Of a stretch of DNA of 64,000 nt, positions 11,076 to 40,871 are shown piece after piece. The translations under genes were made by a program, and so were the position numbers. Positions within the stretch are counted from its first letter, which is position 1, and the number at the start of each line of letters is the position of its first letter. Under the pieces are notes generated by a model. The model had not been told where the DNA came from. It saw nothing but the letters and a program-made list of their open reading frames with translations, and did not search any database. Location of the stretch: contig MU270050.1 in NCBI GenBank assembly GCA_021432635.1, forward strand, positions 496,001 to 560,000, written 5' to 3'. This DNA comes from Thozetella sp. PMI_491 (Eukaryota > Ascomycota > Sordariomycetes > Chaetosphaeriales > Chaetosphaeriaceae).

Positions 11076-12679
11076 CTAATCCAGTCGGCACACTAACTTC
11101 GGCTTTTCCCACGACAAGAATGTCCGCTGCCGAATCCACGTGTCTTGACCAGGTAACACGGAAACATCAAACTGCCACAGTAAGCGCGCCAGAATTAGCC
11201 GCAGCTCTACCAAAGCAAGATTTTGTCCAATGCAGTTTCTGGGACCGTAGCTGAAAGGTTTGAAGACTTCTCGGCAGTCTCCAGCATATTGCCCGCCTCC
11301 CTCCTGATCAATCCATCGCTCCGGTGCAAATCGAAGAGGCTCCTCAAAGTAGCTCGGCGAACGGTAAGCGGCAAACTGAGCAATCCCTACGACTGTGCCT
11401 CCGGGCAGAAATCGGCCATCTACGAAAGCACCGCCTGGAGGCACCGTGCGTGGCATGTTGATGGCTCCAGGGGGATATATCCTCAAAGCTTCGTTGATGA
11501 CAGCATTGAGAAATGCAACGCAGGAAGTAGAAGCAGGGGTCATTTCATCCACAGCGTCGAAGGTAGATCTGAGAACTCCCACCAATGTTGCGTTCACCTC
11601 CGGGTTCTGTGCGAGAAGAAATATGGCACCGGAGAGAAGTGTTGCTATGGTCTCCGATCCTGCAATGACAAGCAGTTGGGAGTTGAGATACAGCTCTTCA
11701 GTTGTAAGCCACGCGTCTTTCTCTTGGCTCTGGTTGATATTTGGCAAGATGTAGCTCATGAAGTCGTGCTGGGCAGGGGCCATAGCCCGCCGCGCTTCCA
11801 CCATGTGCACGATGTTGTTCATGTGACTTCGGGCTTCTCTGACAAGTGCTTTGGGTATAAACCACGATACGAGCCGACCCAGTCCGGGTATCATAGCCAC
11901 CACCAAGCTGCGCGCAATAAGTTTCATTCCTGGAAACACTCGCGCCACCCATGGATGGTATTTTCCAGATTGGAGACACCCAAAAGACTTGCCAAACACA
12001 AGGGTGCTGGTGATATCAAAGGTGGTGAAGTTGAACCAGTCGACAAGATTTATATGCCCTTTGCTAGCCCTGGCTTGTTCTAGACGCGCCATGAGAGCAT
12101 TGACGTGGCTCATGAGAGTGGCATCATAGCTCCTAAGTGCCCTCTCTGAAAAAGCGGGAGCAATTGCACGGCGGTGGCGCCCGTGGTTGACATCGTCGCA
12201 AGATATCATCGGCTTGGCGGGTGCGAAGAATTCGAAATCGTCTCCAGGGAACTCGAGTTCTTCTTTGAGCATTTCTCGAGGCAAGGGGACATGGGAAGCA
12301 GAACTCTCGGCAGGCGTCAGCATGGACCGAGTCCGGGCTCCATAGATATCCTTCCATGCCTGCAAGCTAATGTACGAAAGCTGGCCAGGTGCGATCCGTA
12401 CCACGGGTCCGTACCTCTCGTGGAGCTCGGACCATTTATGCACAGTATTGCCACGCCACTCCTGAATGAGACGAGGTAGCTCTGAGCCAGAATATACCAA
12501 TGGGCCGGGATAGGAGGCCAAAGGGTGGAAAAATGCGTTGTAAATGAATCTGGCTGTGAGGAAAACCAGGACAAAACCAGCCTGTATTCACCCGATAAGA
12601 GATTGCCTGCAAGGATGGGGACTGAGGACTATACCAGGCTGGTGGCTCCTACAACGACGCCCGCGGCGGAGATCTGCAT
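11076..12679 (-). CDS. Cytochrome P450 monooxygenase, 516 aa, complete
   Basis: complement(join(11076..12581,12635..12679)). The large exon is open without an ATG at its start; reading upstream gives FIYNAFFHPLASYPGP, and a 15-codon first exon (starting MQISAAG) across a 53-base GTATAG...TACAG intron completes the membrane anchor. Landmarks: the proline-rich hinge YPGP, the I-helix AGSET (about 322-326), K-helix EALR (379-382), FAPERW and the heme loop FSYGPRNCIG with Cys at about 465. All catalytic motifs are intact and the length is normal. The pattern resembles fungal CYPs often labelled isotrichodermin C-15 hydroxylase-like, but the substrate cannot be read from the sequence. It is convergent with the 9.1 kb P450; a CGG-N6-CCG palindrome lies about 280 bases upstream of the start. 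Confidence 0.88.
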
Positions 12680-14592
12680 GATGAACTGGGCCACGGTAAA
12701 TGTACGCTTGACGATATCTCCTATGATTATTCTAGGGAGCATGAGGAAGCCAGCAAGCAAGTCCTTGCATTTGAGTTTTCTTTATATATGCAAACCGGTC
12801 TGGTGAGGTAGTATGTGATATGGTCTCTTTTTCTGCTACTTAGGAAGGTGTGCCTCTTCCGGTAATGGGCGGCCGCAAACTGCTACTGCAAAGTGGTTTC
12901 GAAATAGTACAGCGGCATCTGCAACGCCTCTCAGCACTTGGCCGCGCGGAAAATCCTTTCGGCCTAGGCCGCGCGATTAGGCGGCATCCGCTGCACGGCA
13001 TCGATAATCGCTTCAGCTCTGACCGCTTATCTGGCTGGACGTGGCGTTTTGGCCGACATTTACCGTATCCTTTGAATGCACTCTGATCCTCGGTCCTCCT
13101 CTGTGCAGAGCGTTTGGGGGCAGCCGAGCGCGATACAAGGCTATCTTCGTCCCAGTGTGCAAGGCTGCGCGAGGCAAAGGATCTGGATTAGTAAGGTCTG
13201 AGGCGACCGACATTTAAGTTAAGGATGTTTGATGGCCTCAGACGTATTATTCCATCCACGGGTAGCTTCCTAATAGGTTAAACTTGTACCGCAGCACGGC
13301 GATTGTCATTTCCTACATTAGTGCGTCGAAAGTATTTGGATTCGCGCAGCGTCTCTAGGAGGACACGGGCCTCTGCCGTCCCTATTGGGATAATATGTGC
13401 CATCGTCACTAGTTTGTTCGCTGTCGTCACTGTCTCGTAATCTCTGGCGTCCTAATCATCCCCGAGTAAGTTGAAGGCGGCGGGGATTATTAACGTCTGA
13501 GCGGATGACTTTGTTGGCGAAGGTGTAGATGTCGACGATGTTGGTGATTTTATTGTGGATGCAATTGTCGTGGAGCTTAAACATGCCTTACCATCCACAT
13601 GGATTCGATCTGCATATGTAAGGTTGTATGTGCGATTTAGTAGCGCATTCATGAGCGAATATTTCATTGAGGGTCTAATGAGGTACACGAATGTTACAAA
13701 CATGGTTACTCTCTCCGCGAGGCTTCTTGGCTAGCCGGAAAGGCAGCTCGTTAGTCAGGTGGCAGGAGAATCTCGCGGGGCCGTACAGCTGGTTCCTGGC
13801 TGGGCAAATGCACGTTTGATGCGGCCACCTGCCTAGCAGCTGGCAGCTCGCGGTGCAGCAAAACGGCAGGGCCAAAAGTGATGGCTATCCCGGGAGGAGC
13901 AGGTTGCTGTTCGGCCCGACATCGAGGACCTGGGACCACCAGAAGGAATCCGGCCGGTACGGCGGGACAACCTATTCGGCGGAAACGCCCGAGGCCAGCG
14001 CCGCGGAGCCGCACGAGGACGACCGAGCCGCTCGGCGCCCAAGATACCATCTACAGGTGGAACGTGCGTCGCAGTAACAACAATTGCAAATATGCACCGG
14101 TCTCCCGCGGTGCCCACTGGCGTCATCATCGATGTCAAGAATGCCTGCACCTTCCAAATGGCGTCCAACGGCGGCAGGTGCATGGGCCAGCACCCAGCGC
14201 TGGCGTTCAAGGCGGCCCACTCCACCAGAGCGAGCAAGACTACAGAATCTCACGGGTATAGATGCCATGTACTTATAAAGTAAAGCGAACACGCAGCTTC
14301 AACGCTTGCTAGGCTCTTCTCGAGAATTCCGAGATCCCAATCATGGCTGTGTGACGGAACAAAAAGCGTGCGGCTAGCCATAGATTTCTCAGAACGCGGT
14401 GGGCTATGCCTTCCCAAAGCATGGTCCGCTTGAATTCGTGACTGCTTGATACACGGTCTAGACCACCGCACCTGCGAAAAGCGACTAGCACTATGAAAAG
14501 ACGACGAAGGTGTCGGGCTTTGTGATGAAGAACAAAACAATCGAGTGTCACCTTGTCCTCCTCGCCTGGGGAATGTCTGGTTCCGTGGCCAC
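12680..14592. other. P450 promoter and unassigned GC-rich stretch
   Basis: 12680-13080 is the GC-rich 5-prime flank of the P450. A 78-codon frame without a start (13500-13736, +) and overlapping open frames on both strands at about 13850-14260 have GC-rich third positions but no motif I recognise. They may be remnants of a gene or chance openness of GC-rich DNA. I make no gene call. Confidence 0.4.
12960..12971. promoter_or_regulatory. CGG-N6-CCG palindrome, candidate Zn2Cys6 binding site
   Basis: CGGCCTAGGCCG is a perfect palindrome with CGG half-sites 6 bases apart, the arrangement bound by many dimeric Zn2Cys6 regulators. It sits about 280 bases upstream of the P450 start at 12679, and a Zn2Cys6 gene lies at 23.1 kb. 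A single occurrence could be chance. Confidence 0.35.
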
Positions 14593-14630
14593 CACACCCA
14601 CGTACACACACACACACGTACGCACGCACA

Positions 14631-14660
<30 letters not shown>
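14593..14660. repeat. (CA)n / (GA)n compound microsatellite
   Basis: An interrupted CA tract (14593-14634) runs directly into about 13 GA units (14635-14660) that end at the ATG of the next gene, so the tract would be its 5-prime leader. Confidence 0.9.
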
Positions 14661-15216
<556 letters not shown>

Positions 15217-15421
15217 CGGCGAGGATGACGACGAGAATGACGAGGATGAGGAAGAGCAACAGCAGCAGCAATAACAGGGAGGGGGGTCCGGGAACAATAT
15301 TATTCATTAATACACCAGTCGTTGCTCGCGTGATTTCTCTAACATGCGCCCGGTGCTTCCCGTGAAAGAACCCATGTGAATCTCCATGTCTCGTAGTGAG
15401 AACCATGATGGTGCTGTACCC

Positions 15422-26014: not shown

Positions 26015-27775
26015 TCAGTAAGAGTAGCGGAAGAGCGGGCTTCGGTCTCCCATCCTCTCTAGCTCCTCCTCTCCGTACTTCTCTGCAATAGCATCCATAT
26101 CCATTGCGTCCCTCCTCTTATTTACCCTCCAGTACAGACCCTCCAGTGCCAGGCCCGTGAGCAAACCAGCACTTGCCAATGAGAATGCAGTTGCATACCC
26201 GCTCGAGTAGTACGGGGCTTCATCGTCCCGATACACAAAGCCGCCAAAGATGCCTCCGATGTTGCCGATTCCAATCAGTAGTCCCAGAGCCATCGCCCTC
26301 TTCCCCGCAGGCGCCGTGTTGTCCACCAGCCAGCTTATTGAGGTCGGCGGGATGCCGTAGAGTCCGACGCAAGCTAGACAGATCGCGAAGTAGCACGCAC
26401 CAACGTGGTCGCGCTGCGTGGGACTGTATTTGTACAAAATCGCATGTGCAATTAGAACTAGGGCATCGCCGGTGACCACAAATGGCATGCGCCAGCGCGT
26501 CTTGTCGGCTCCGTAAGCGAAGCCCACGGCGCCAAGCACGCCGCAGAAGTACGGCGGGATGGTCAGCAGCTGTGCAGTGGATGAACTGTAATTTCCCATG
26601 CCCTTGATGATCTGCGGCATGGTGAACTTGAGGGCATAGTTCGGCCCGGTGCTTGACAGGTCAATGAGGGCAAGGAGATATACCTGCCAGCCCTGCAGCA
26701 CCGCGCGGAAGGTCTGCCAGTCGAGCAAGCCCCGCTTTACATCTCCGTCCCTCTCATCCCCGTGCTTGCCTCGGCCCTGGGTGGCGCGCTGGCGTACGGT
26801 GAGAAAGCGAGCCTCGTCAGGTGTCAAGAAAGACGAGAGGGAAGGCGAGTCCGGCATGAAGACATAGGTAAAAGCGCCTGCAACGATGGAGGCGAGGCCT
26901 TCGAGGATAAAAATCCAACGCCAGGCTGCATAGCCACCCAAGCCGTCCATGTTGGCTATACCAAAGGCGAGAAGTCCAGCGAAAGCACCAGCCGCGGCAG
27001 AGGTCGAATAGAAGAGCGCGACGCGGGTCTGGGTCTCATGCGGGAGATACCATGCTGAGACGAGATAGATAGCTCCTGGGAAGAAGCCAGCCCTGGAGAT
27101 GTGTACAAGTATGTATCAGCCCGAGTAATAGGCGTCGGAGGTTTGAGTTCTGCGATGAAACGAGTCTTGACTCACTCTGTAAGACCTAGTAGAACTCGCA
27201 CGGCACAAAGGCCTGCATAGCTCTGGACAAACCCGTGGCACGTCATGACCAAGCCCCATACCATTGCCAAGCCTCCAAGGAAATGAGACGGGTGAATGAG
27301 CTTGGCGAGAACGGAATTCATAGGCACCTCTGTCGCCATGGTTAGCACTTCCCGGGCTCCTCTTTCACGCGGACTTACCGAGCAATATGTATCCAATGAA
27401 AAAGATGGATGTCACAACATTGTATTTAACGCCGTCTAGATGTAACTCTTCCGAGAGGCCCTCGATTTTTGCATTGGCTTTCGCCGATAGTCAGCACGAT
27501 ATGAACAGGGGCTAGGTAGACGAGAAAGTCTTGTTGTAAGTACCAAGATTAGTCCGGTCTAAGAAGGATAACAGATACAGCAGCCCCAACAAAGGCACCA
27601 GCCGAATGTCAACCTTTCTGGTAATTCTCTTCCGATCGGCTTCGGTGAAAGAGGCAAGGAACTCGGCGTCCTCGGCGCTCAGCCGGTTAGGGTCGTGGCG
27701 GCGGCCACTGGGGCTTGTTTTGTTCGTCAAGCCTGCCGGCCTTGCTGTCAAGTCTGCTGAATTCTTATCATCCAT
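26015..27775 (-). CDS. MFS transporter, ACS (allantoate/carboxylate permease) family
   Basis: complement(join(26015..27092,27176..27329,27379..27477,27544..27775)), 520 aa. All introns (83, 49 and 66 bases) have GT...AG ends and keep phase; the 49-base one has a GCTAAC branch. Diagnostic Dal5/ACS features: LLYLLSFLDRTN in TM1, ANAKIEGL, a TSIFFIGYILLEVPMN segment, FPGAIYL in TM4-5, WRWIFILEG and PDSP in the central loop. Known relatives import allantoate, nicotinate, phthalate, biotin or other carboxylates with protons at the plasma membrane. It is tail-to-tail with the Zn2Cys6 gene, suggesting import of the compound acted on by the neighbouring P450s, or coincidence. The start at 27775 (MDDKN) is preferred; the frame happens to be open to 28123. 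Confidence 0.85.
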
Positions 27776-29792: not shown

Positions 29793-32260
29793 TTAGTTGA
29801 CCCACGAGCCCGGCATCACGGTTTTGATTGGCTTGATTCCATCACGCCTCCTCTGCTTGGCCGCTTTCTTCTCCTGCTTTCTCGCAAACCTGGCGTGGTT
29901 GAAGCGACAACGATGAACATTACACCACTTGTTCTCATCGGAGCCAAGACAGTCTTCCCCTAACATGTTGCCGGTTTGGCACATCGTGTGCGTGCCACCG
30001 TAAAGTGGCCACAGGTCTAGATAGCAGCCCGAGAGGTCACAGTTGCAGAGCAAGGTGGGATACCTAGACAGACGCAGAAGGAAATTTGAATACGCGTTCA
30101 AGGCGTCCTTTTCGCGGTCGGTCTCCCTATCATGTACCGTGCCGCTCTCAAAGCGTAAAACGCAGAGCATGAGGCCTCGTATGCTCCTATTGTTTCGGTC
30201 GTAAGATTCGATGCGGGAAACCGAGACTTTGGCGAGGTGGCCGACTACTGGTCCGCAGTAGGTTCCAGCATGTATGGCCTGTGAGGCGAAGTCCATCTCG
30301 TTAAGGAATGCCGCGTCTGAGCTTGTAGGTGGATGTTCCCTCCTTAAATCGATGGTTTTAGTCTGCGGGGAGAAGCGGACGATCCGTGTTGGGATGCAGT
30401 GATACCAAAACAACGAGCAGGTAGACTTGTTAGAGGGCCACTTGAGCCCTAAATGGTGGATCTTCTGTTCTTCTCTGATGTAGACCCCAAGATCTACTTG
30501 ACAGGCTTCTAGAAGGCGTTGCCAGCCTAAGACAGCAGCCGAAATATCGTGGGAGAGGCAGCAAGAGACCAGGTTCTCGAGGGGCGTCCTCCCATTTCGA
30601 TCGACGTGGTGAACACCCGCACCGTCCTCAATCAGTCGCTTCGCCAGGTCATCACGCGGTTCCTGGAGCTGAGCAGTGGCTAGAGGTTCCCACCATGCGC
30701 AGAGCAGACACAAAAGAGCACCAAAATAGCCATGCAGGCATACTAGCCTGTCCCGTGACGCAGCACGTCGCAAATACTCGATGGCGTTCAATAATTGCGT
30801 GACGGCCGGTATGGAATGCCTTCTACTATCTCCGGGGTGGAGGATGATGTCGAAGGGGTCATACTCGAAGAGATCTAGCTTGGAGCAGACCAAGGAGAAG
30901 AGCTCGGCCGCGTGGATATCCTCGGCCTCCAAAACGCCCCAAATCCTATGATATCCGACGTGCAAGTTAGAACAAGACACTTTGTTACTCAGATGTCCAC
31001 TAATATCTTACGCAAAATTGGCCACCTTTGGCCGAATTATACAGCCTTGCCAATAGAGAAAGGATGCAATATTCCTAGCACCAAATAGTGATGCCCACTT
31101 TGTAGATGGTGCCACTATTATTAGTCTAGGCTTCGTGTTTGAAATAACGATTTCCAGCGACATTGGGTGATCGCTTACTTCGACAAGGCTCCAATCTCCA
31201 AAAGCACTGTCAAGGGTACAGACGCCTTTGCTCAGTAGTCTCTGGAGCCCACGCATATCGTCATGACAGATGACGCTATCCACCTGGCTGTCAAAGATTT
31301 TCTTGGTGAGGTTGTGGCCAAAACTTAGCCTAACAGTCAACGCACGGCTGTCCGAGCGGGTAATCATCAACCTGACAAATCTGGGCAGGAAGGAAAATTC
31401 TGCCATGTACTCAGACAGGCTAATCTTAGTATCAACTTCAACACCATTGGCATCCCGATACCTCTTGTGTTTCGTACTCTTTTCTACTCGGAGCAAACCG
31501 AAGCCGGGGATCTGCCTCAGCGCCGAAGCCACTAATGCTGTGGTAGTGGTACGTTGCGTGCTTTGTTTCGTGGTGTGGTTTCCTGTGCAAGTGTCGGTTC
31601 TTACTAATCCCACTTTCCCTGGGCTCTGGCAGAGATATCTTGCAGTTTCTGGCCAGTCACAAGCCTGGCGGGTGAAAGTTAGACTCTGTTGGCTTTCGAC
31701 CCTGAGGTTCTCAAGCCCATTGAGGACAGCGATAGCACTGGTTGTGTTGGCGTGCCTGGATAAGATGGATGAGCATAGGAACACAGCTCTCGAGTAACAA
31801 CGTATTCCCCTTACATTAAATTTGTTGTGAGCATGACATTGAGGATGCTGAGTGCCTGATTCAGCTTTCTCTCCAGGTCAAGGATGCAGTCTTTCTCGAG
31901 GGCGAATCGAAATCGTGCCCAACTCCGAGACACCAGAGTCCGGCCACGTTCTACATTCTCAATCCTGTTCAGCCTGTCACGGATTACAACAAGTCTGCCC
32001 TGACAGACGCCCAAAGCTTTGTGAATGTCAGCCGCGCCAGGAACAACACCGTTGTACAGCCTGCGTTGGCACTCGACCGCATTCTGCACGCCGACTGACA
32101 TGGCATGTATGAGCTGGAGTAGGTCTCGAAGCCGGATAACCTCATTCGGGGCATCCGTGAAGGTATTGAGGAAGTCGATAAGACTGCGTGTTGACTGGGC
32201 TAGTTGGATGGCCAACGATAGAACACCAGCAACGCTCGCCGCAGCGCTCAAGCCGTCCAT
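29793..32260 (-). CDS. Fungal STAND-type N-terminal domain plus ankyrin protein lacking an NB domain
   Basis: complement(join(29793..30945,31012..31755,31815..32260)), 780 aa; introns of 66 and 59 bases with GTAAG donors rejoin phase, and the first-listed has a TCTAAC branch. Residues 1-148 are the helical domain seen at the N-terminus of fungal STAND proteins (MDGLSAAASVAGVLSLAIQL, then STRSLIDFL, a heptad-like body and a long helix). Ankyrin-like elements appear at about 314-330 (GLQRLLSKGV) and 496-520 (LAKRLIEDGAGVHHVDRNGRTPL). There is no NACHT or NB-ARC P-loop between them, so it is not a full NLR. The C-terminus has a Cys-rich segment (about 690-750) and a basic tail (KKAAKQRRRD). A signalling or incompatibility role is inferred from architecture only. 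Confidence 0.72.
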
Positions 32261-36267: not shown

Positions 36268-38217
36268 ATGGCGGACCCCATTACGATCCTCGGCGCAGTC
36301 GGGACTGTCGCAAGCATCATCGACATCCTGGGGAAGTCAATCAGTAAAATTGCAGAACTTCGGGATCAGTGGCAGGAAGCTGACTTGACGATGCTGAGCC
36401 TGGAAAGCCAGCTTGCTGCTCTCAACACAGCGCTGAACAAGATCCGGGACTGGATCGAGTCGAGTTTCGAAACTCTGCATCACCAGCTAGTCATGGACCT
36501 AAACCGCTCGATGGCTTGCTGCCGCCTACTGGTCAATAAGATTGACGGAGACATCCCCCATCTCCAGGTGACAGCGGAAAACCGGCTTGACGTCGCAAGT
36601 AGGTTTCGCTTGTTGCTGAAGTCCAAAGATTTTGAGAATATCCAGCAGATGATTGAGCGGCAGACTGGTGCTTTGATATTGCTGCTTACTGCATGCAACA
36701 CGTAAGCGTGCCTTTTTCCTACGATGCACTAGAGATGCAGAGCCTTTCTAACACCATGCAACTTAGGGTCACTCTATCAGAGCAGAAGGAGTTGCTTACG
36801 CAGCCACACAACCGTCGCATCTTCCGCAAGATAGAAGCCGATACCGAATCTTTGCTTGTGCACCGGGATATTGATTCTATGTTGACCTCATACACTGCCA
36901 CCTCAATAAGCTCGCCGAAGCGGTCAATCCAGTTTCCATTCGACGCGGACCTTTTCGTCTCGCGGATATACCAAAGATGGATAAGAGGATCGCTCAAAAA
37001 GAGTCTCCACGAACAGCAGCATGACACGCCTTACCCGCAGCCATACTCGTGGTCGTGGAAGGAGGATGCTGAGCGGAGGAAGAGATCGGAAGCCATCGAC
37101 CGGCTGCTCGAGGATGACTCCAAGAGGCTACGCCGCGAAATCAGAATTCTCTTGCTTGGGTCAGAGTCGAAAGCTGAAATCGTGAAGCAGATGAAAATGA
37201 ACCACGCCAAGGGATACTCAGAGAAGGAACTTCAAAGTTACAGGCCTACTATCTTCACTTATGTCTGCGAGTGCGCGGGCGTGGTCGCCAGTGCGATAAG
37301 GCAGTTCGGCATGGCTCCCAAGTCTGACCCGATTTGGGGGCACACTGACTACATAAGTACTTATGTTCTCGACCCGAAACCTTATGGATTGGACCCGAAA
37401 TTCATGGCCGCTCTCGAATTGATCCGGCACAGCCCAGACTACGCGAAGCTCATGAATCACAGCGAGTTCCACCTGCCAGACTCGGCAGAATAGTGGGTTG
37501 CCCCAACTATCTCTTACTTTCTTTTTCATTTCCTTTGCTATGTATTACTTAACTTTCGATATAAATTGCATTTTCATCGAATATTCCATCGTAGGCGCTG
37601 ACAAGAAATACAGTTTCTTTAGCGATTTAGGCAGAATCGCAGCGGACGACTATCTACCAAACGACATGGATATTATGCAAACCCGAACTAACACTACCGG
37701 CATTGCCGACGTACAATTTCAAATGGGGTCTATTAGTATCCACATGTTCGATATAGCTAACCAGTGGAGCAATCGAAAGAAGTGGATTCATTACTTTGAA
37801 AGCATAAAATCGGTCATCTTCGTTGTGGACCTAGACACATACGACCAGGTGCAGTTGGAAGATTGCTCACGGAACAAGATGTTAGAGTCCCTCATGCAAT
37901 TCGACTCTGTCGTCAATTCGAAATGGTTTGCCGACACATCCATCATCCTGCTTCTCAACAATGTCACTCAGTTCAAGGATAAATTGCAAAGGTCTCCTCT
38001 CGGTAACTACTTCCCGGACTATAGCGGCGGTGACGATATAAACAAAGGCGGAAAGTATATCCTTTTGCGATTTACCCAAATCAACCGGGCGTATCTCGAT
38101 ATATATCCACGCCTCATAGATTCTGACGATGTTGCCAATATTCAACTCGTATTCGCCGCGGTCAAGGAGACGATATTGAACAACGCGCTGAAGAGGACTT
38201 CTGACTTGCTCTCCTAA
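36268..38217 (+). CDS. STAND-type N-terminal domain fused to a degenerate G-protein alpha subunit
   Basis: join(36268..36701,36767..37492,37614..38217), 587 aa; donors GTAAGC and GTGGGT, acceptors TTAG and ACAG, with TTCTAAC and GCTGAC branches. Residues 1-about 110 match the fungal STAND N-terminal domain pattern (MADPITILGAVGTVASIIDILGK). From about 270 the protein follows a heterotrimeric G-alpha: ILLLG...IVKQMK with a GYSEKEL helical-domain start, SAEYFFSDLGRI, YLPNDMDI, switch I TRTNTTGI (Arg411 and Thr414 kept), switch II as DIANQW before NRKKWIHYFE (Gln437 kept, preceding Gly replaced by Asn436), SPLGNYFPDY, and the final alpha5 as VANIQLVFAAVKETI. The P-loop GxGESGKS is reduced to GSESKAE (276-282) and NKxD to NNVT, so GTP binding is probably lost. 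No N-terminal myristoylation motif. The 3-exon frame is fully open, arguing against a pseudogene. Confidence 0.82.
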
Positions 38218-39019: not shown

Positions 39020-40871
39020 CTAGTCCTGCTCCGGAGCTGGGGTGTGGGCCTCCTCGACCAAGATTTCTGGCATCTTAAACGCACTCTCGACGTTGACTTT
39101 GTCTATACCCGTCAGATCTCGCGGAACCCAGAAGAGCTGGATGCATCCCAGAACGGCAACCCCGGCACAGCTGAGCCAGGCGGCGGCGCTGCCCCCCTTG
39201 TCGTATACCATGCCTACAAGAGGCGGACCTATCGTTCGCGCCGCGCAGGTAGCGCTCATCGCAAAGCCATTGACCTTGCCGAGCACCCGAGGCGAAGGGG
39301 CGGCATTCTTGAGGAAGATGAGGATGCACGGGCCCGAGATGATGCCGAAAAACGACTGCATCATCATCAAGGCGTAGATGCCGAGGTTGAGCAGCCAAGG
39401 TGGGTCGATGCCAACCAAGAGTGTCAGGAACGGCATAAGGGCGTATGGGATGGGATAGAGGATTACACAGATGAGGAAGGAGTGCCAGACGCCGACGCGT
39501 TCGACAAACAAGGGAAAGACCACGCCTTGGATGATGAGAGCCAAGATGCCGCTCACAGCCATGAATGTCCCGACATCGTGAACAGTGAGGCCGAAGCCAC
39601 CGAACAGGTCGAGGCTCGGGATGCCGGGGGATGACTCTGTCGAAGGCACGTCGATCAACTGAATGGGCAGCACGGCACCGAAAGCCATTTGATGGTAGGC
39701 GATGATGACTAGCGTGAGGGTGAGAATGATAACCGGGCGGGTGAAGGTCTTTTCGTTGGCAGGAGCCTCTTCCTCCCCATTGCTGGGCTTGAATTGGGCA
39801 CGGGGATCCTGGGACGCATCTGCACCACCTTGGCCGTTGGGGAGTCGGATCGAATGCATGGTACCGAAAGACGAGCGCCGCAGGTCGAATCTCTGGTCCG
39901 TCGAAGTCGGCAAGCCCTCCTCCAGGAATACCGGGCCTGCAACCTCGCTGATGCTTTCCACGGCCGATCTCGGGTGGCTCGCGGAGCGGAGGAGTGGTGC
40001 CCCCTCGTCATCCTCGGCCTCGTCGTCACAGACTGCGGATTCTCCCACGTCTGTATGACCGCCCTTGATGCATCCTGGATTTGTTTCTTCGAGCAAAATC
40101 ATGCCCTGGACCACGGCTAGCAGGATGGCGGCGACAGACACAATGTTGGGCAGCAGATACGGATACTGTCCGAAAAGACCATCTTCGGGGAAGATAGAAG
40201 GATAGAAGATACTTGGCTGTGCCAGGTAGCCACCCATGGCCGAACCGAGGATGGAACCGAGAATCCACACGAACGGCTGCACAGCGTAGGCGACCGGTTC
40301 GTGGGCAGGGTTCTTGACCATCTCAGCCACCATGGTCTGCATGACGGCAACATTTCCGTTGAGGGCACCGCCGATGAAGCGGGCCAAGAAAGCGACCCAG
40401 TAGCTCTTGGCCAAGCCGAAGATAAGGCACGACACGGCCACGCCCATGAGCCCGAAGAGCGCGATTGGCTTCCGGCCGACGCGGTCCGAGATGGCGCCCC
40501 ACAGCACGGCCGTCAAGGCTTCGGCTACGGGGAACGCAGACACGAGCAGGCCAGCGTAGAAGGATACGTCAGGATTGTCCTCGCCCAAGAGGTCCCTGGT
40601 CATCACGTAGGTGTATGCCAGGATGGAGTTGAAGGCGATGGGCTCCGCGAAGCGACATATTGCTGTGGACCGCCGTCAGTCTTCGCACTAGCATGTGCGC
40701 CACGATCCACGACGCCGGATGGCTTCAAGGAAGTTGACTGCGCGGAGAGGAGGCGAAAGGGAAGGGGAGCTTACCGAGCACTATGAGCTGCCGTGTCGGA
40801 AACGGCTCCTCCTCGACGGGCTTCTTGGCCGGTGCGCCAGCCGCCATCTGGTCTCCGTTGTGGTTCGCCAT
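39020..40871 (-). CDS. MFS transporter, DHA1 / YCR023C-ZIF1-like, 579 aa
   Basis: complement(join(39020..40662,40775..40871)); a 112-base GTAAGC...CACAG intron splits the protein after RQLIVL, and the join gives AICRFAEPIAFNSILAYTYVM, characteristic of this subfamily's TM1. Motif A is present (GAISDRVGRKP). A long acidic and Ser-rich cytosolic loop (about residues 230-330, with CDDEAEDDEG) separates the two six-helix halves. The second half contains SGPCILIFLKN and GPPLVGMVYDK. Relatives in yeast and plants (ZIF1-like) move small ligands or drugs across vacuolar or plasma membranes; the substrate here is unknown. The gene is complete and strongly GC-biased at third positions. Confidence 0.85.

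Follow-up and report, generated by a model that had tools for sequence, protein, structure and literature searches.

The stretch of DNA considered here, hereafter the window, comprises 64,000 nucleotides (nt) of the 72.3 Mb genome assembly of the ascomycete Thozetella sp. PMI_491 (Chaetosphaeriales, Sordariomycetes; C36:496001-560000). On its forward strand, a three-exon gene (36268..38217) encodes a protein of 587 amino acids (aa) in which, as judged from sequence and from structural models of relatives, a helical-bundle N-terminus is followed by a flexible linker and a class III alpha subunit of heterotrimeric G-proteins (G-alpha) that keeps the fold and the alpha-N helix but lacks a normal P-loop. 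Its product belongs to a conserved two-domain protein family of filamentous ascomycetes. What these proteins might do is best captured, with about an even chance of being right, by a nucleotide-independent pseudo-G-alpha serving as a partner-binding module for a HeLo-like or STAND-type N-terminal domain, so that the protein would read the state of the G-protein instead of acting as a GTP switch.

Structure of the gene and its product

Joining 36268-36701, 36767-37492 and 37614-38217 (+) yields the 587 aa in one uninterrupted frame. Both introns (65 nt and 121 nt) are of the GT-AG type and contain a branch-like CTAAC or CTGAC, the motif ending 14 nt (intron 1) and 11 nt (intron 2) before the end of the intron. 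Splicing thus bears out the three-exon frame proposed in an initial annotation of this DNA, and the residues named there were all located (GSESKAE at 276-282, R411, T414, N436 and Q437 within DIANQ at 433-437, and NNVT at 502-505). A frame open by chance can be dismissed because P0002 from another order (Xylariales sp. PMI_506) aligns with 63% identity over 99% of the length; for aa 1-235 the identity is 77%, for aa 250-580 it is 55%. The features are listed below, GNA-3 being the canonical class III G-alpha of the same genome.

36268..36701 (+): exon 1, Met1 to part of codon 145; bulk of the N-terminal helical bundle, first helix hydrophobic, ITILGAVGTVASIIDILGK; helices assigned from the P0002 and P0043 models by analogy
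36702..36766 (+): intron 1, 65 nt, phase 2, CTAAC close to its end; position and phase as in both fused paralogues of the genome, as spliced here
36767..37492 (+): exon 2, which completes the bundle and then covers a flexible linker (about aa 184-243), alpha-N, beta-1, the shortened P-loop and the helical domain; limits taken by analogy from the P0002 model
36879..36881 (+): Met183, first residue of a deposited 405-aa model without the N-terminal domain
37062..37133 (+): alpha-N helix of the G-alpha part (aa 244-267), by analogy with the P0002 model
37158..37178 (+): shortened P-loop GSESKAE (aa 276-282), from sequence and alignment
37493..37613 (+): intron 2, 121 nt, phase 2, within the Tyr after DSAE; position and phase match a canonical GNA-3 intron and both fused paralogues
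37614..38217 (+): exon 3, switch I to alpha-5 plus stop
37684..37695 (+): switch I, R411 to T414, Arg and Thr retained
37750..37764 (+): G3 motif DIANQ (aa 433-437), canonical DVGGQ
37774..37800 (+): switch II surface RKKWIHYFE (aa 441-449), equal to GNA-3 except for Cys to Tyr
37957..37968 (+): G4 motif NNVT (aa 502-505), canonical NKxD
38116..38127 (+): G5 region IDSD (aa 555-558), TQAT in GNA-3, Ala to Ser

The deposited model of this gene, P0001, is identical to the window protein but 405 aa long; it begins at Met183, and the N-terminal domain is absent. Two deposits, P0001 and P0008, start within the linker and a third, P0009, close to where the bundle ends, as would be expected if the true product were a free pseudo-G-alpha of 405 aa, exon 1 belonging to another transcript or to a single isoform. 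This is very unlikely, given that the exon 1 sequence is better conserved than the G-alpha part (the 77% against 55% to P0002), that the position and phase of intron 1 are common to both paralogues and that many relatives are deposited as fusions. Deposits such as these three suggest that annotation may conceal the fusion in other species.

Relatives and paralogues

The initial annotation had made its reading depend on finding the same two-domain architecture in other ascomycetes, and relatives with this fusion do occur in four classes. They were found in the Sordariomycetes (Hypocreales, Sordariales, Amphisphaeriales and Xylariales, the last placed by name only), the Leotiomycetes (Tricladium, Pseudogymnoascus and Phlyctema), the Dothideomycetes (Corynespora, Massariosphaeria and Clohesyomyces) and one Lecanoromycete (Bacidia). 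Some deposits are incomplete: the C-terminal end is absent from P0007, P0015, P0016 and P0018, and the N-terminal domain is wholly or partly absent from P0001, P0008, P0009 and P0030. P0011 (Pseudomassariella vexata) and P0017 (Bacidia gigantensis) seem to be without the greater part of the helical domain of G-alpha, which may reflect errors in the gene models.

Six loci of the Thozetella genome have G-alpha matches over the cut-off, three of them canonical and three fused and broken. Among four weaker loci, two align with the window protein, presumably Arf-type GTPases, and two do not. The canonical proteins (353, 355 and 355 aa) have intact motifs, and we take them to be GNA-1, GNA-2 and GNA-3. 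The fused loci are the window gene, C3 and C9. As spliced here, C3 encodes 549 aa (its deposit is P0044, a hypothetical protein of 560 aa) and C9, for which we chose the splice sites, encodes 590 aa. The two paralogues, more changed than the window gene, lie on the reverse strand at about 2130-4005 of L009 (C9) and L010 (C3). They share 36% identity over 562 columns, and each is about 25% identical to the window G-alpha part. In two-sequence BLASTP with the low-complexity filter off, the N-terminal domain of the window protein matches that of C3 (E 1e-5), and the same comparison gave no match with C9. A search with C3 returned only its own deposit P0044, and any deposit of C9 was missed as well.

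The introns tie the three fused genes together. Intron 1 always follows the second base of the codon after Ala-Cys-Asn, Ala-Cys-Lys or Ala-Cys-Asp, while intron 2 falls after the second base of the codon matching the Tyr of DSAEY in all three and in GNA-3, which has four further introns absent from the fused genes. The shared positions and phases support a single ancestral fusion behind the window gene, C3 and C9.

A G-alpha with a broken nucleotide site

The Pfam G-alpha family (PF00503) matches aa 250-574 at a score of 278.5 bits (cut-off 48.8), covering positions 2-333 of the 333 in the profile, and the G-alpha fold with its Ras-like and helical domains and alpha-N is recognisable. The alpha-N helix and first strand are well preserved (aa 244-277, 65% identity to the canonical GNA-3). 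The G-alpha-like domain of the initial annotation is thus confirmed, except that it starts earlier than the P-loop strand noted there and includes the alpha-N helix, which in canonical G-alphas contacts G-beta-gamma.

The P-loop Lys is still present in GSESKAE; the simplest account of the change from GSGESGKST to GS-ES-KAE is therefore that both P-loop glycines and the Mg-binding Ser were lost, the alignment permitting other placements. The P-loop motif of functional GTPases, GxxxxGK[ST], occurs neither here nor in any of 31 fused proteins. The base-binding NKxD and TCAT-type motifs are replaced in the window protein by NNVT and IDSD. Nor does it have the N-terminal Met-Gly that serves lipid attachment in G-alphas: it begins MADP, and its alpha-N helix is internal. 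The set of 31 consists of 28 database proteins and three from the Thozetella genome; the motif table itself holds 32 fused proteins, including the fragment P0040. P0040 stops short of the later motifs and was therefore left out of the 31, as were P0001 and P0044, which duplicate the window gene and C3.

The shortened form is itself a recurrent feature, since G-[SAD]-[EDRQ]-S-[KR] stands at the P-loop in 21 of the 31 fused G-alphas, and in 13 of 23 once rows at least 70% identical are removed. Differently degraded P-loops are seen in P0042 (GIRASSKST), P0025 (GQVNSGKEL) and P0036 (GGTRSGKDL), and the loop is further changed in P0010, P0015, P0017, P0020, P0023, C3 and C9. NKxD is retained only in P0016 and P0018 (NKID); P0006 and P0007 have DKxD and P0042 has TKMD. 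Degenerate motifs (GSDHASKST, DVGPL, TEVD) were also seen in P0034 of Mycena sanguinolenta, a basidiomycete G-alpha that stands alone.

The loss can be quantified at positions that are invariant in eight canonical sequences, using contact lists that we assume from the Gi heterotrimer structures. Nucleotide contacts are retained in 22% of the cells (15 positions), compared with 49% for other positions (37) and 60% for G-beta-gamma contacts (10); P0011 is misaligned around its missing helical domain, which lowers its counts. By permutation, the loss of nucleotide contacts has a p of 5e-5 with the 31 rows, and none of 20,000 draws equalled it with the 23 non-redundant rows. A strong preferential retention of the G-beta-gamma surface is not supported, the effect being marginal.

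By its motifs, the window protein is a G-alpha homologue but not a functional G-alpha GTPase. Since phosphate loop, Mg-binding Ser and base-recognition motif are all missing, its G-alpha part should be incapable of cycling. It might be argued that nucleotide is bound in an unusual manner through the retained Lys, the switch I Arg and Thr and the switch II Gln, as the equivalents of K46, R178, T181, D200 and Q204 are all kept in the window protein. In the 31 rows, these residues are kept in just 6, 7, 7, 23 and 6 cases (K46 often being Arg). Moreover, the window protein is without the Mg-binding Ser and both P-loop glycines, its NKxD and TQAT motifs are broken, and the structural model predicted for P0002 leaves no room for a phosphate loop. 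Such binding is therefore most improbable. The pseudo-G-alpha fused to a fungal helical N-terminal domain that the initial annotation had put forward is supported.

Ancestry, rates and selection

A tree of G-alpha parts was built from 38 rows, 27 of them fused, leaving out the near-copies P0024 and P0026-P0028 and the fragment P0040. In this tree, 26 fused rows group with GNA-3 (98/98) and form one side of a branch supported 87/92, while P0042 of Clohesyomyces aquaticus groups with GNA-2 (100/94). A single clade for all 27 was rejected by the approximately unbiased (AU) test (p 0.004), P0042 lying on a long branch flagged by the tool. BLASTP agrees in most cases: 24 of 27 are nearest to GNA-3, the exceptions being P0042, whose best match among the three Thozetella canonical proteins is also GNA-2, and P0018 and P0039, for which GNA-1 gives a slightly higher score. 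P0042 has an N-terminal domain 46% identical to that of the window protein and, among the fused proteins, the nucleotide motifs closest to canonical; it is an apparent independent capture of a class II-like G-alpha. The G-alpha part derives from class III (GNA-3), and as one relative is apparently of class II, the fusion probably arose twice.

The window G-alpha part is 56.6% identical to its own GNA-3 over 341 residues. Fused branches are long: the distance between the window protein and P0002 is 0.79, whereas Thozetella GNA-3 is still 66% identical to its basidiomycete counterpart P0012. Between the window gene and GNA-3, synonymous sites are saturated (ps 0.79) and the nonsynonymous distance (dN) is 0.36; between C3 and C9, dN is 0.59 and the synonymous distance (dS) about 3. 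Judging from these comparisons, selection has kept the proteins, the dN and dS values yielding no reliable ratio. The selection on the frame that had been suggested at the outset is therefore upheld, the protein being still 57% identical to a canonical paralogue at saturated synonymous sites. A young pseudogene, named in the initial annotation as what would overturn its reading, can be rejected in view of the relatives with the same fusion, the shared introns and this saturation. Since fused relatives are present in several ascomycete groups, the gene gives the impression of a signalling device that is being maintained, not of one on its way out.

A slower decay has also to be considered, in which it is the N-terminal domain that functions, with constraint on the G-alpha tail relaxed and the tail gradually disappearing. 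The long G-alpha branches, the variable G3, G4 and C-termini, the apparent lack of most of the helical domain in P0011 and P0017 and the better conservation of the N-terminal domain all agree with it. Decay does not readily account for a shortened P-loop motif common to those 21 proteins from several orders, for the identity to GNA-3 just mentioned, nor for intact frames of 587, 549 and 590 aa in one genome, and we regard it as distinctly unlikely.

The N-terminal domain

The recurring N-terminal match is PF17111, beginning at the first residues of that profile in each case shown. Exon 1 of the window gene reaches 14.7 bits (E 0.021) against a cut-off of 27.2 and stays below the Pfam threshold; E is at or below 0.01 in 15 of 26 proteins scanned, the best being P0041 with 24.7 bits. 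The precomputed annotation of the search database gives PF17111 for P0039 and P0041. Fold matches of the domain are not specific, and the absence of HET-s among the matches listed excludes nothing. What stands of the STAND-type N-terminus initially proposed is thus the recurrence of in-register PF17111 matches, but not a score over the cut-off or a specific fold match.

In predicted models of relatives, the helix order is that of a bundle in which a short helix separates long helices three and four (72-100, 105-117 and 120-142 in P0043; 72-99, 109-118 and 120-143 in P0002). HeLo-like domains have a short helix placed between the third and fourth long helices, and HeLo domains reportedly expel their N-terminal helix and form a membrane pore on oligomerisation (PMC9815663). 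The first helix of the window protein is hydrophobic with spaced glycines, and taken together with this pore mechanism it makes the N-terminal domain, by analogy, the likely output part.

No match to NACHT or NB-ARC was obtained in the window protein at E values up to 10, HMMER filters dropping most matches above about 0.1, and a Pfam scan found no C-terminal repeats in it. Lacking an NLR-type nucleotide-binding domain, the protein is by its domain content not an NLR.

A search with aa 1-240 returned 22 proteins, 17 of them annotated as G-alpha, including P0001 and P0008, whose models keep only the end of this region. The other partners are a PH domain (P0029), ankyrin repeats (P0031 and P0041) or no listed domain (P0040, a partial model, and P0043). 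As the PH-domain and ankyrin-repeat proteins show, the N-terminal domain is a mobile module also combined with other partners.

Proposed mode of action

The G-alpha part would not bind guanine nucleotide in the usual manner and would act as a partner-binding module in a fixed state, most likely for G-beta-gamma or another G-protein partner. It would thereby behave as plant XLG2 and P-loop-mutant G-alphas do: XLG2 acts as a nucleotide-free partner of G-beta-gamma (PMC8584482), and the G42R substitution gives a locked G-alpha that retains G-beta-gamma and GoLoco partners (PMC3285607). The fusion would bring the N-terminal domain to the G-protein complex, or release it when the complex changes, and this domain would then supply the output by oligomerising or acting on membranes, in the manner of HeLo-like domains. 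The whole protein would report the state of the G-protein without being switched by GTP. The retained alpha-N helix and RKKWIHYFE fit the action of a nucleotide-free or locked G-alpha, with weak support from the overall statistics.

Several points weigh against a nucleotide-independent module of this kind. The retention of G-beta-gamma contacts is marginal (p 0.02 with 31 rows, 0.06 with 23 and 0.07 without P0042), and three of the 19 listed contacts, F199, S206 and C214, are retained in only 7, 4 and 3 of the 31. The ties to G-beta-gamma and to an NLR-like output drawn in the initial annotation are hypothetical. The nucleotide site is partly retained in P0042 (GIRASSKST and TKMD), P0025 and P0036 (SGK) and P0016 and P0018 (NKID). 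The G-alpha part evolves fast, most end branches of the fused proteins being several times as long as the GNA-3 branch. In 24 of the 29 usable comparisons (30 in all) conservation is higher in the N-terminal domain than in the G-alpha part, a pattern in keeping with relaxed constraint or with diversification; the exceptions are P0009, P0025, P0036 and the two own paralogues, P0008 being without the domain. Finally, the N-terminal domain falls short of PF17111 membership at the Pfam cut-off, and the predicted models are those of its relatives P0002 and P0043.

The same rate pattern can be read in another way, as a fixed effector joined to a changing sensor. As a guard or integrated decoy, the class III G-alpha copy fused to an immune-receptor-type N-terminus would sense parasites or non-self acting on G-proteins, and disturbance would free the N-terminus for cell death. 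The G-alpha part is indeed of class III, and MOD-D of Podospora, a class 3 G-alpha (PMC6786475), is among the mediators and suppressors of heterokaryon incompatibility (PMC1325252), acting in vegetative incompatibility, which makes a guard or decoy role plausible by analogy. A mycoreovirus that suppresses non-self recognition represses G-protein subunit genes (PMC5363999); together with the role of MOD-D, this renders an immune function attractive. Integrated kinase decoys in NLRs were proposed in a 2025 survey of the Sordariales (PMC12258605). Furthermore, P0042 appears to have captured another G-alpha class, and the N-terminus of a neighbouring gene likewise resembles PF17111 (E 5.6e-4, under the cut-off). 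Set against this, the protein is not an NLR for want of a NACHT or NB-ARC match, plain relaxation of the G-alpha part would also be expected to give the rate pattern, and the neighbour may be a matter of chance. We therefore consider a guard or decoy possible but rather unlikely. The fuller version, a two-domain immune receptor in which a dead class III G-alpha replaces the nucleotide-binding and repeat parts of an NLR, guards against or baits interference with G-proteins and fires a HeLo-like cell-death domain, a second G-alpha class having been recruited independently, is tentative and in our view unlikely.

Comparison with known systems

To our knowledge, the best-documented nucleotide-independent G-alphas come from plants. 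A conserved family in fungi that combines a broken site with an immune-receptor-like domain would show a similar solution arising separately. In the XLG1-3 proteins, too, a G-alpha-like domain is preceded by a long N-terminal part; these proteins depend weakly or not at all on nucleotide, and they function in immunity (PMC8584482). Their N-termini differ in carrying a cysteine-rich motif and nuclear signals (PMC8584482), whereas a helical bundle is predicted here from the models of relatives, with three cysteines in the first 235 residues and no such motif. Because this G-alpha part groups with fungal class III, the likeness to XLG would be convergent. By analogy, a plant XLG carrying a fungal receptor-type N-terminus would come closest to how the window protein works, the two having arisen separately.

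The direct relatives are the canonical class III G-alphas (GNA-3, GanB and MOD-D), with the identity and the shared intron described above. Compared with these, the window protein has an extra N-terminal domain and is without a working P-loop, NKxD, TQAT or N-terminal Met-Gly. With fungal STAND proteins of the NLR type that have HeLo-like N-termini (PF17111), it has in common a weak in-register N-terminal similarity and, in the models, the short helix between the third and fourth long helices (PMC9815663), but neither NACHT or NB-ARC nor C-terminal repeats were found in it and its PF17111 score is under the cut-off. Integrated NLR decoys, such as the kinase domains of the Sordariales (PMC12258605), resemble it in that a signalling protein was duplicated and fused to an immune-type architecture; here there is no NLR core, the G-alpha occupying the place of the nucleotide-binding and repeat parts. 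The term "G-alpha" is absent from two fungal NLR surveys that were probed, PMC12258605 among them, and no description of a fused or dead fungal G-alpha was found among the open-access titles and abstract openings listed, subscription papers and preprints lying outside that scope.

The fusion would physically link a class III G-alpha, whose Podospora member takes part in vegetative incompatibility, to cell-death-type domains. It makes testable whether a HeLo-like domain can be controlled directly by G-beta-gamma or by its disturbance. A word of caution follows for these fungi, as deposits named guanine nucleotide-binding alpha subunits are not all likely to be GTPases.

Other features of the window

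The neighbouring gene mentioned above lies about 4 kb away and is divergent.

29793..32260 (-): adjacent gene, 780 aa as spliced here, with the PF17111-like N-terminus and a weak ankyrin match; it may or may not belong with the fused gene

A low-complexity repeat at 14510-15365 is open in several frames and is not a credible protein. One cytochrome P450 match and two matches to major facilitator superfamily (MFS) transporters were found at 11076-12521 (-), 26015-26950 (-) and 39020-40606 (-).
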